Assembly (NCBI GenBank): GCA_903813345.2
Contig: CAIIXF020000012.1
Coordinates: 35,816,528-35,880,527 of the forward strand
DNA from: Owenia fusiformis
Taxonomy: Eukaryota; Annelida; Polychaeta; Sabellida; Oweniidae
DNA: 64,000 nucleotides
Direction of reading: 5' to 3'
The position numbers and the translations under genes were made by a program. This document shows positions 3,301 through 60,300 of this stretch, in pieces (the stretch's first letter is position 1; each line of letters opens with the position of its first letter). A model generated the notes under the pieces. That model was given only the letters and a program-made list of their open reading frames with translations. It was not told where the DNA came from and made no database searches.

Positions 3301-6300
3301 AAAATCCAGAATATATTCTTTCTTTTTACCCCCTGCGATAAGCAGTTAGCATTTCCCCAATTAAGAACTTGCAATCTGATTGGCTGTCGCAACAGTACGA
3401 CAGAAATCATGTATAAGTCATTGCGCATAATTAGATCACATGATTCAGTTTAATCGGGCGCTTTCAAATTGGTTATAGCAGGGGTAAGAAGAAGGTACAG
3501 ATTCTGGATACCTGCTTAGGAGGATGGTTTTCCAAAGAACCACTTATCCATTTAACTTGAAATTTTTACAGATGCAAGATTGTAAGAGCAGACTATTGCC
3601 AAAATTTGATTTTTTTTTATTGATTTATTTATATTTATACAAAGAATACATTAAACAAGTGCACATGTGCTTGTGGCTGGGCATCAGCATTATCAGCCAC
3701 GTTATATGATGAAGTTGCCAAAATTTGATTAGGTTTTGGGCATGCTGGGTAAATTACATGGTGGCCATTTTTCTCATCAAAATGCGATAATTATCGCTGT
3801 GTGTCTTGTTTAATTTATAAATCATGTGTCAAACATATTCCATTGTTGAACAAACATGAAGTTGACTCTCAAGATCATGTCATAATATAATTGTTCTATT
3901 TGTAGCTCGAAAGACATACCCCAACAAAATAGTAAAAGATGGCGCTATTACAGATGAACATACTGATTGGCTCATTGATGCTTCTGTCTTCCTATTTAGC
4001 AGTTGGTAAGAACTTGTTTTGAAAATATTTTTGGAGGGAGGGGGGTGGGTAATGCCCATCTAGTTTAATAAGGTGATGTACTATTTCCATTAAGCAATTT
4101 AAGCCCAAGACTCAAGGCATTGTTTGCTGAATCATACCATGAAGGTGTTGTTTCCAAACCTTTGCATGACCGCGCAGGGAAACAATTCTTTTCACACATT
4201 GCAAATTTTTTCTAAAATAACACATTTTCAATGAATCTTTTTGCAAGGGTCAAGTTGACAAGTCATCAAATCCAATGTTAAAAATCCATTCATCACCATG
4301 ACAACTATTTAACTAGTGACCTTGCATGTGTTATTGATATTTCAAACACTGTGCATTATGTGAATACTCTGTTTGGATTGGCTGGAATCGGCCACGCCTT
4401 GCCTAGCTATGTGTGAATACATTATTAAAGAATAGACTCTTGTCAATTGTGTCATCAGAATTAAAGTAAAACTGAGTATCTATCTGTCACTGACTTCAAA
4501 GTTTTACTATTGCAAGAGCAGACACGTGCAAAAAACTGATTTAATTTTGGGCATGCTAGGTAAAATATTTGGTGGCCATTTTGTAGTGAGATTTTTCAAG
4601 TTGAGTTAATTTGATGCCATTATTAAATGCCATATTTATAGTAATTTAAATGCCATATTTACAGTGCATGGTCTCCAGTGCTTCTCTTGCACTACTATGG
4701 ACAATGAAGCCGCATGTGGAGATGCCATATTAAATGCCATATTTATAGTAATTTAAATGCCATATTTACAGTGCATGGTCTCCAGTGCTTCTCTTGCACT
4801 ACTATGGACAATGAAGCAGCATGTAGAGATGCCATATTAAATGCCATATTTATAGTAATTTAAATGCCATATTTACAGTGCATGGTCTCCAGTGCTTCTC
4901 TTGCACTACTATGGACAATGAAGCCGCATGTGGAGATGCCATATTAAATGCCATATTTATAGTAATTTAAATGCCATATTTACAGTGCATGGTCTCCAGT
5001 GCTTCTCTTGCACTACTATGGACAATGAAGCCGCATGTGGAGATGCCATATTAAATGCCATATTTATAGTAATTTAAATGCCATATTTACAGTGCATGGT
5101 CTCCAGTGCTTCTCTTGCACTACTATGGACAATGAAGCCGCATGTGGAGATGCCATATTAAATGCCATATTTATAGTAATTTAAATGCCATATTTACAGT
5201 GCATGGTCTCCAGTGCTTCTCTTGCACTACTATGGACAATGAAGCCGCATGTAGAGATGCCATATTAAATGCCATATTTATAGTAATTTAAATGCCATAT
5301 TTACAGTGCATGGTCTCCAGTGCTTCTCTTGCACTACTATGGACAATGAAGCCGCATGTGGAGATGCCATATTAAATGCCATATTTATAGTAATTTAAAT
5401 GCCATACTTACAGTGCATGGTCTCCAGTGCTTCTCTTGCACTACTATGGACAATGAAGCCGCATGTGGAGATGCCATATTAAATGCCATATTTATAGTAA
5501 TTTAAATGCCATATTTACAGTGCATGGTCTCCAGTGCTTCTCTTGCACTACTATGGACAATGAAGCCGCATGTAGAGATGTCATATTAAATGCCATATTT
5601 ATAGTAATTTAAATGCCATATTTACAGTGCATGGTCTCCAGTGCTTCTCTTGCACTACTATGGACAATGAAGCCGCATGTGAAGATGCCATATTAAATGC
5701 CATATTTATAGTAATTTAAATGCCGTATTAACAGTGCATGGTCTCCAGTGCTTCTCTTGCACTACTATGGACAATGAAGCCGCATGTGGAGATGACATAT
5801 TAAATGCCATATTTATAGTAATTTAAATGCCATATTTACAGTGCATGGTCTCCAGTGCTTCTCTTGCACTACTATGGACAACGAAGCCGCATGTGGAGAT
5901 GCCATATTAAATGCCATATTTATAGTAATTTAAATGCCATATTTACAGTGCATGGTCTACAGTGCTACTCTTGTACTACTATGGACAATGAAGCCGCATG
6001 TGGAGATGCCATATTAAATGCCATATTTATAGTAATTTAAATGCCATATTTACAGTGCATGGTCTCCAGTGCTTCTCTTGCACTACTATGGACAATGAAG
6101 CCGCATGTGGAGATGCCACATCAAATGCCATATTTATAGTAATTTAAATGCCATATTTACAGTGCATGGTCTACAGTGCTACTCTTGCACTACTATGGAC
6201 AATGAAGCCGCATGTGGAGATGCCATATTAAATGCCATATTTATAGTAATTAAAATGCCATATTTACAGTGCATGGTCTACAGTGCTACTCTTGTACTAC

Positions 6301-57300: not shown

Positions 57301-60300
57301 ACCTAAACAAGTCCTGCTTACCATAAAGTCAAGTTTACCTTGGTAAGCATTACTTTTGACCTGCCAAAATGAGACACTGCTACTTTGTAGAATAATGCCC
57401 ATATATGGTATGAATATTACATAGAAATTTCATGCAGAAATATGAATAACTGCAAATATGAGAATTGAACAATATGTTTTAGAAATGTGTGACAGAATTA
57501 GACAAGACATGGCACCCTGAGCATTTCTTCTATGTCATATGTGTACTATACTCTTTATATTTTAGAAATGTGTGACAGCCTTGGACAAGACATGGCACCC
57601 TGAGCATTTCTTCTATGCCGTATGTGTACTATACTCTTTCTATTTTAGAAATGTGTAACAGCCTTAGACAAGACATGGCACCCTGAGCATTTCTTCTATG
57701 TCATATGTGTATTATACTCTTTATACTTTAGAAATGTGTGACAGCCTTAGACAAGACATGGCACCCTGAGCATTTCTTCTATGCCATATGTGTACTATAC
57801 TCTTTATATTTTAGAAATGTGTGACAGCCATAGACAAGACATTGCACCCTGAGCATTTCTTCTATGCCGTATGTGTACTATACTCTTTATATTTTAGAAA
57901 TGTGTGACAGTCTTAGACAAGACATGGCACCCTGAGCATTTCTTCTATGCCATATGTGTACTATACTCTTTATATTTTAGAAATGTGTGACAGCCATAGA
58001 CAAGACATTGCACCCTGAGCATTTCTTCTATGCCGTATGTGTACTATACTCTTTATATTTTAGAAATGTGTGACAGTCTTAGACAAGACATGGCACCCTG
58101 AGCATTTCTTCTATGCCATATGTGTACTATACTCTTTATATTTTAGAAATGTGTGACAGTCTTAGACAAGACATGGCACCCTGAGCATTTCTTCTATGTT
58201 ATATTTGTACTATACTCTTTACATTTTAAAAATGTGTGACAGTCTTAGACAAGACATGGCACCCTGAGCATTTCTTCTATGTTATATGTGTACTATACTC
58301 TTTATATTTTAGAAATGTGTGACAGTCTTAGACAAGACATGGCACCCTGAGCATTTCTTCTATGTAATATGCGTACTATACTCTTTATATTTTAGAAATG
58401 TGTGACAGCCTTAGACAAGACATGTCACCCTGAGCATTTCTTCTATGCCATATGTGTACTATACTCTTTATATTTTAGAAATGTGTGACAGTCTTAGACA
58501 AGACATGGCACCCTGAGCATTTCTTCTATGCCATATGTGTACTATACTCTTTATATTTTAGAAATGTGTGACAGCCTTAGACAAGACATGGCACCCTGAG
58601 CATTTCTTCTATGCCATAAGTGTACTATACTCTTTATATTTTAGAAATGTGTGACAGCCTTAGACAAGACATGGCACCCTGAGCATTTCTTCTATGCCGT
58701 ATGTGTACTATACTCTTTATATTTTAGAAATGTGTGACAGCCTTAGACAAAACATGGCACCCTGAGCATTTCTTCTATGCCATATGTGTACTATACACTT
58801 TATATTTTAGAAATGTGTGACAGCCTTAGACAAGACATTGCACCCTGAGCATTTCTTCTATGTCATATGTGTACTATACTCTTTATATTTTAGAAATGTG
58901 TGACAGCCTTAGACAAGACATGGCACCCTGAGCTTTTCTTCTATGTCATATGTGTACTATACTCTTTATATTTTAGAAATGTGTGACAGCCTTAGACAAG
59001 ACATGGCACCCTGAGCTTTTCTTCTATGTCATATGTGTACTATACTCTTTATATTTTAGAAATGTGTGACAGCCTTAGACAAGACATGGCACCCTGAGCT
59101 TTTCTTCTATGTCATATGTGTACTATACTCTTTATATTTTAGAAATGTGTGACAGCCTTAGACAAGACATGGCACCCTGAGCTTTTCTTCTATGTCATAT
59201 GTGTACTATACTCTTTATATTTTAGAAATGTGTGACAGTCTTAGACAAGACATGGCACCCTGAGCTTTTCTTCTATGTCATATGTGTACTATACTCTTTA
59301 TATTTTAGAAATGTGTGACAGCCTTAGACAAGACATGGCACCCTGAGCATTTCTTCTGCGCCCAATGTGGTCGACCATTCAATGATGAAGGTTTTCATGA
59401 GAAAGAGGGGAAAGCCTTTTGCAGGTAAGGGTTTCAGGTTAAATTACATAGTGATCGACTTAATTCACTGAGTAAGTGAATAAGATGTAAGAAATCAAGT
59501 AAGCATCGTGGTTCAAAGTTGTTAGTAGAGACTGTAAAGTAAAATTTCCTAAATAAATTGTACATGTTACAATCATTTTCTCTCATGAGAGACAATTTGT
59601 GACAAAGTTCGACAAATCATTTTCTCATAAGGGACATCTTACAAATTATTTCCTCTCATGAGCAACATGTTACACTTCACATGTTACACTTCATTTTTTC
59701 TTATGATCATATGTTATACATGTTTTTCAGGGAAGACTATTTCGAGATGTTTGCTCCAAAATGTGGAGGTTGTAATCGACCAATCATGGACAACTATATC
59801 TCGGCTCTGAATCGCCAGTGGCATCCAGAGTGTTTCGTTTGTCAGGTATGGGGATATGTTGCTTCAATTAAAGTAATATAGCAAAAGATAAGGAGTTTCA
59901 TAGGGATATCAATAAAGCTGTTTCATAGGGAGATAAAGCTGTTTCATAGGGAAATAAAGCTGTTTCGTAGGGAAGTAAAGCTGTTTCATAGGGAAGTAAA
60001 GCTGTTTCATAGGGAAGTAAAGCTGTTTCATAGGGAAATAAAGCTGTTTCATAGGGAAGTAAAGCTGTTTCATAGGGAAATAAAGCTGTTTCATAGGGAA
60101 GTAAAGCTGTTTCATAGGGAAATAAAGCTGTTTCATAGGGAAGTAAAGCTGTTTCATAGGGAAATAAAGGTGTTTCATAAAAAGATAAAGCTATGGGACA
60201 TACATGTAGTAGTCCGGCAGCCAAAGTGTAAAAAATTGAGTGTCCTTGTTTTGTCTCATTAAGTTTTTTTGTCTGCAGATTATGCATAGTAAGGGTACCT

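Follow-up and report, generated by a model that had tools for sequence, protein, structure and literature searches.

Why do so many tandem arrays within one stretch of annelid DNA lie across splice junctions, and what becomes of the extra junctions that they create? The question is raised by 64,000 nucleotides of the Owenia fusiformis genome (assembly GCA_903813345.2, contig CAIIXF020000012.1, positions 35,816,528 to 35,880,527; we call the whole stretch the window), in which a first-pass annotation had pointed to seven arrays in four genes, named as Rab35, paxillin and two Ly6-type genes, each multiplying the edge of an exon together with its splice site. We find that the arrays are a real and recurrent feature of this genome, of a kind already known from amphioxus as mirages, and that they are useful for having turned up in a second phylum and for presenting natural arrays of decoy splice sites. 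Most likely they are the annelid's own mirages: neutral tandem duplications that are tolerated since the splice site proximal to the exon wins.

All seven arrays were recovered in the window with Tandem Repeats Finder (TRF) where the annotation had placed them, and reading the sequences showed head-to-tail units in which one exon-intron boundary and its splice site are multiplied. The working junction belongs in every case to the copy adjoining the body of the exon, which is the last copy of an acceptor-side array and the first copy of a donor-side array, just as the annotation had it. The other copies look like decoys, putatively unused, and we refer to them by that name. The annotation was less accurate about the background of other repeats: its seven were seven "of about fifteen" arrays, and fifteen is too few, as the window holds 46 merged arrays at a TRF score of at least 50 and a period of at least 10.

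The first Ly6-type gene, on the forward strand, carries arrays on both sides of one cysteine-rich internal exon (6484-6645). On the acceptor side a 107-bp unit is repeated 18.0 times (4613-6544), with the working acceptor at 6483/6484 in the last copy and AG kept in 17 of 17 decoys; on the donor side a 96-bp unit is repeated 2.9 times (6568-6850), with the working donor at 6645/6646 in the first copy and GT kept in 2 of 2 decoys. The second Ly6-type gene, also on the forward strand, has a donor-side array of 18 bp x4.7 (21273-21357), whose first copy holds the working donor (21281/21282) and in which GT is kept in 3 of 4 decoys. Rab35 lies on the reverse strand, where an acceptor-side array of 113 bp x2.8 (24429-24750) has its working acceptor at 24493/24494, with the exon at lower coordinates and AG kept in 2 of 2 decoys; the donor-side array of the same gene (20 bp x2.2, 25042-25084, working donor 25067/25068, GT kept in the 1 decoy of 1) is the smallest of the seven and weak, with a score of 65. 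Paxillin, on the forward strand, has a donor-side array of 93/100 bp x13.8 (52372-53714) at an exon with an LD motif recognized by eye, the working donor (52419/52420) being the first copy and GT being kept in 13 of 13 decoys. Its acceptor-side array of 83 bp x22.7 (57473-59357) precedes a LIM exon whose translated part, 59309-59422, starts at the last acceptor copy (working acceptor 59308/59309), and AG is kept in 21 of 22 decoys.

Five of these seven junctions were placed by eye, while the two in Rab35 both came from an exon model based on homology to the Ras family. The names of the host genes are likewise of unequal standing. Rab-35 is the best match among solved structures for both Rab35 exons (1.9e-21 and 5.3e-19). 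For paxillin, the exon that follows the 83-bp array has a Pfam match to LIM (9.2e-12), as have two further exons of the same gene; the exon at 55629-55871 gives a Paxillin match barely above the cut-off (25.6 against 25 bits), and the exon at the 93/100-bp array gives a weak one that falls below it (E 0.03). The Ly6-type genes owe their name to a cysteine pattern seen by eye and to their mutual similarity, 72% over 176 bp; two internal exons, including 6484-6645, had no match in Pfam and three had none in NCBIfam, the exons being short.

Arrays of this description are not new as a kind, contrary to what the first-pass annotation had supposed. In the excerpts of two papers on amphioxus (PMC3087553, PMC3902484), minisatellite-like tandem copies over an exon-intron boundary are described as "mirages" in Adh3, the globins BflGb6 and BflGb9, PGBD5 and troponin C, and are reported to leave regular splicing undisturbed; the excerpt on PGBD5 (PMC3902484) notes repeats over splice sites and cites Adh and troponin C. 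The annelid arrays are alike in having tandem units over a single boundary, with both 5' and 3' boundaries affected, in keeping AG or GT in many copies, and in a unit length that varies from locus to locus. They differ in reaching up to 49 copies (5.2 kb) and in their host, which is an annelid rather than a chordate. The excerpts report haplotype length differences and undisturbed mRNA for amphioxus, whereas the annelid arrays are known from the sequence of one assembly. Mirages were described there gene by gene, and the excerpt of PMC3087553 terms their mechanism unclear. Among the matches listed in our literature searches, no title or abstract opening reported mirages outside amphioxus.

The genome itself agrees that the host is no amphioxus. 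It has five matches to the annelid linker family PF16915, four of them above the cut-off, at 27.03-27.05 Mb of contig C6; this erythrocruorin-linker cluster stands beside globins at 27.06-27.08 Mb, and among 14 control genomes only one matched the family, below the cut-off. Amphioxus has the GFP family. A search of the present genome for that family gave no match, a result that does not show absence. A COX1 query aimed at a mitochondrial contig had no hit at E of 0.01 or below.

Might a single element, mobile or introner-like, have inserted at these junctions? Such an element would account for the involvement of unrelated genes. The sequences argue otherwise, as the consensus units differ between loci and host exon sequence lies inside each unit. 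Three of the units (107, 96 and 83 bp, in two DNA queries) match their own locus only, except that the first query also hit the paralogue next to it, in a search that skips common words; in these two queries, covering three arrays, we thus did not see the one sequence at many loci that marks an introner. The claim that the arrays are independent and not one mobile repeat is borne out as far as these units go, and a single mobile repeat was rejected as a candidate. We regard the chance of an inserted element as negligible.

It is extremely unlikely that the extra copies were put in by long-read assembly. In favour of such an artefact, two DNA searches of the assembly found no allelic contig and no second haplotype. 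By eye, however, the copies carry substitutions of their own and higher-order patterns, and arrays are present in a number of genes. The published O. fusiformis assembly is given a read N50 of 25.75-30.75 kb in the excerpt of PMC9977687, and if this is the same assembly, the reads are longer than the largest array (5.2 kb).

The window was selected by its reader, and the frequency of such junctions was taken from loci outside it, in an assembly of 498,259,871 bases and 525 contigs. The first sample took in genes of the chaperonin and Ras families with their surroundings (256,243 bp), with 220 modelled junctions and 97 arrays; the second, a replicate, comprised 40,707 bp around myosin heads, with 98 modelled junctions, bringing the two together to 296,950 bp and 318 modelled junctions. 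Labels beginning with L or g denote sampled loci, g6 being a chaperonin gene joined from L007-L009. In the first sample, where a junction was counted if it lay at least 10 bp inside an array, 11 of the 220 modelled junctions are within arrays, 8 of them with an intact duplicate of the splice dinucleotide. The other three (L030, 21 bp; g4, 48 bp; g6, 28 bp) have no intact duplicate site and were dropped from the decoy counts; the modelled position of the 53-bp donor in g6 was off by 9 bp and was corrected. Two further arrays were found by eye, a donor array of 105 bp x49 that extends over 5.2 kb with 48 decoys, and an acceptor array of 30 bp x2 in which the exon's share is just 4 bp. The myosin sample has 2 of its 98 modelled junctions in arrays and three more by eye, one of these with just 4 bp of exon. 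Over both samples, intact duplicate splice sites occur at 10 of 318 modelled junctions (about 3%) and in the five arrays found by eye.

The spread among genes is uneven, with at least one junction array in 5 of 8 chaperonin loci, 3 of 37 Ras-family loci and 3 of 7 myosin loci. The gene g6 has more junction arrays than any other sampled chaperonin gene (105 bp x49, 53 bp x20, 96 bp x4 and the decayed 28-bp array). Both types of boundary are affected: a hand tally over the window and the samples gives 12 acceptor-side and 10 donor-side arrays, and one of the myosin genes has the two types facing each other with 137 bp between them, a donor-side array (83 bp x7), whose exon was recognized by eye only, and an acceptor-side array (91 bp x12).

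Some of the exons read by eye could be compared with related loci. For the exon at L055:3632-3748, alignment with myosin exons of the sister loci L053 and L050 gave scores of 52 and 50, where 30 shuffles reached at most 37 and 40; its score against L051 was 47, with no shuffled control, and the 32 obtained against L049 is under the shuffled 40 and is no alignment. For the exon at L055:1833-1937, sister-locus alignments gave 26-32, under the shuffled maxima of 38-46 where shuffling was done. Pfam recognized neither of these two exons, and a PDB search with one of them gave no match. Two acceptor-like arrays, at L023 (88 bp x3.1) and L029 (41 bp x10.7), were left out of the counts; the exon part of the latter has no clear match.

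Are the extra copies used? The idea that duplicate sites are kept as an aid to splicing or as a source of alternative proteins draws on their integrity, since the splice dinucleotide is intact in 177 of 178 decoys (150/151 plus 27/27) once the three set-aside arrays are excluded. We nevertheless consider it very unlikely. In 10 arrays with the truncated outermost copies left out, the exon and intron parts of the decoys are about equally variable (61 of 443 columns against 45 of 254, p 0.19), and before that trimming changes fell at the three codon positions in 11/130, 13/129 and 20/127 cases, by plain count only a weak lean toward the third position. The unit length is a multiple of three in 5 of 22 arrays and is not in 17, so that most units shift the frame. 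In 8 of 11 readable arrays (out of 16), splicing to the nearest decoy would run into an in-frame stop, and three arrays have copies that lack the dinucleotide. Selection on the decoys was itself considered as a candidate, from the lower variability of their exon parts, and was rejected when the difference ceased to be significant without the truncated copies. The suggestion that redundant copies are under selection therefore meets no sign of coding selection.

Strength of site does not choose among the copies either. Scored with a matrix for which these genes served as the training set, 126 of 150 intact decoys equal or exceed the working site, and site strength alone thus cannot explain the choice. 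Exon definition is well established. On it, nearness to the partner site at the other end of the exon can plausibly explain which copy is used.

Neutral duplication would then proceed as follows. A local duplication would copy the edge of an exon, its splice site and the edge of the intron, and the array would grow and homogenize as other minisatellites do, the origin being presumably by duplication and then by slippage or unequal exchange. The extra copies are located intronward of the junction in use and would be removed with the intron, on condition that the spliceosome chooses the site nearest the exon's other end; copies obeying this rule would be neutral and would survive. Selection presumably weeds out duplications that fall within exons, and the coverage by arrays, 2.6% of exon-match bases as compared with 10.4% of other bases, is as expected if this is so.

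Several observations weigh against the neutral account. The count of 177 of 178 omits the three junction arrays without the dinucleotide, in which 0 of 4 scored copies had it, as well as one loss seen in the 18-bp array with a shorter core. When the outermost copies are included, intron columns are more variable than exon columns (74/278 against 60/553), and those copies were dropped post hoc, after the edge copies proved to be truncated. The splice dinucleotides are rarely lost (1 of 24 columns variable), which could hint at constraint, the columns being too few to test. The junction models are homology-based predictions, a few of them with low splice scores. Finally, arrays with long units occur at junctions above the expectation for a single randomly placed unit, and plain neutral duplication leaves this excess unexplained.

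That excess speaks for a process tied to splice junctions, such as breakage or copying at the boundary in connection with transcription or splicing, that makes copies there oftener than elsewhere in introns. We compared the arrays of the sampled loci with three null placements, of one random unit, of two random units, and of the whole array at random. Among arrays of both samples with units of at least 40 bp and at least 90% match, the 90% limit having been chosen after the first sample, 9 of 15 cross a modelled junction, as against expectations of 1.57 when one unit is placed (p 0.00002), 3.12 when two are (p 0.0006) and 6.38 when the whole array is (p 0.12). The first-pass annotation is supported under the first two placements and not under the third. 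Inclusion of three hand-added junctions raises the count to 12 of 15, a figure that is biased, since contact with an array led to their discovery. Without g6, the richest gene, the first sample still has 5 of 7 arrays at junctions, above 0.83 (one unit) and 1.70 (two units, p 0.011), although not significantly above 3.09 (whole array, p 0.13).

Other counts speak against a targeted process. When arrays of every kind are taken over both samples, 13 of 114 cross junctions, where 2.9 (one unit), 7.2 (two units) and 14.7 (whole array) would be expected. In the first sample, arrays with a period of 10-39 bp do so in 0 of 31 cases at a match of at least 90% and in 2 of 43 at a lower match, with no excess over two-unit or whole-array placement. 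The replicate, for which the criterion was fixed before the sequences were fetched, gives 2 of 4 by the automatic count and is not significant (expected 0.58 for one unit, p 0.09; 1.09 for two, p 0.30; 2.17 for the whole array, p 0.76); the count rises to 4 of 4 when the edges of the two L055 exons described above, seen by eye where the exon model has a gap, are included. Permutation of whole arrays gives no significant excess with modelled junctions only (p 0.07, 0.12 or higher), and reaches significance just when hand-added junctions are included (one or three; p 0.015 and 0.004).

Two further considerations may produce an excess by other means. Removal of exon-internal arrays by selection would leave survivors near exons that are bound to straddle a junction. 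The guanine-plus-cytosine content of junction-array units is also slightly higher (0.38 as against 0.33, with 14 arrays each and hand-added junctions included) and may matter too. Whether junctions are enriched depends on the null chosen. We would argue, as a point of reasoning and not as a result, that the unit-level null is nearer to the mechanism, because an array is made up of the descendants of one unit and long arrays placed at random swallow whole exons. On the evidence of these loci a junction-targeted process is not demonstrated, and we hold it to be possible and rather doubtful; we would grant no better prospects to the broader idea that splice junctions are preferred birth sites of tandem arrays in amphioxus and annelid alike, via a process linked to transcription or splicing.

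Neutral, mirage-like duplication can also be set beside other systems in which parts of genes are repeated. Mutually exclusive tandem exons are complete exons with both splice sites, whose copies are translated. They share with the present arrays the occurrence of tandem copies within a gene; the units here hold one junction only, rather than a whole exon with an open, constrained frame, and vary and shift frame as described above. The closest annelid case in our literature searches is an earthworm metallothionein gene, which in the excerpt of PMC12783039 has duplications of exon 4 that are absent from the transcript. It is alike in being from an annelid, in having duplicated exon sequence outside the transcript and in the presence of minisatellites in intron 1 of related genes; the copies there are of the exon, one of them inverted, and the excerpt does not present them as a tandem array that spans a splice junction. 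Intron gain through tandemly duplicated AG/GT sites, discussed in the excerpt of PMC3087553, resembles the arrays in that a tandem duplication carries splice signals, but yields a new intron, while here an existing junction is multiplied with no evident new intron.

A few observations made along the way concern other features. In the window, 9825-10697 (reverse strand) and 11193-11934 (forward strand) form an inverted pair that shares one long reading frame and is probably a mobile element; the second stretch has an internal 82-bp tandem duplication at 11601-11767. Among the myosin matches, twelve in tandem to one part of the head (about 18-84 of the model) lie on the minus strand at G000:C9:37986009-37994334, upstream of the rest of a myosin gene, apparently an extensive set of alternative exons. 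One Ras-family exon (about 94-136 of the model) is matched three times in one gene, at L047:1018-1143, 1199-1321 and 1961-2086. Chaperonin exons with complementary model ranges on G000:C222 and at G000:C12:35255176-35255911 possibly belong to a single gene split by assembly.

Mirages are now found in a second phylum, at about 3% of modelled junctions and in one case with 48 decoys. Two questions can accordingly be put to large-scale tests: are junctions hot spots of duplication, and how does the spliceosome come to ignore dozens of comparable sites? For gene annotators the arrays are a warning, as they invite false exons, and they are possible raw material for intron gain, as was proposed for amphioxus in the excerpt of PMC3087553. 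If junctions are indeed preferred birth sites, mirages would be a general class of mutation in animals and not a curiosity of amphioxus, and natural arrays of sites of equal strength, in large numbers, would show that a site is chosen by its place beside the exon.

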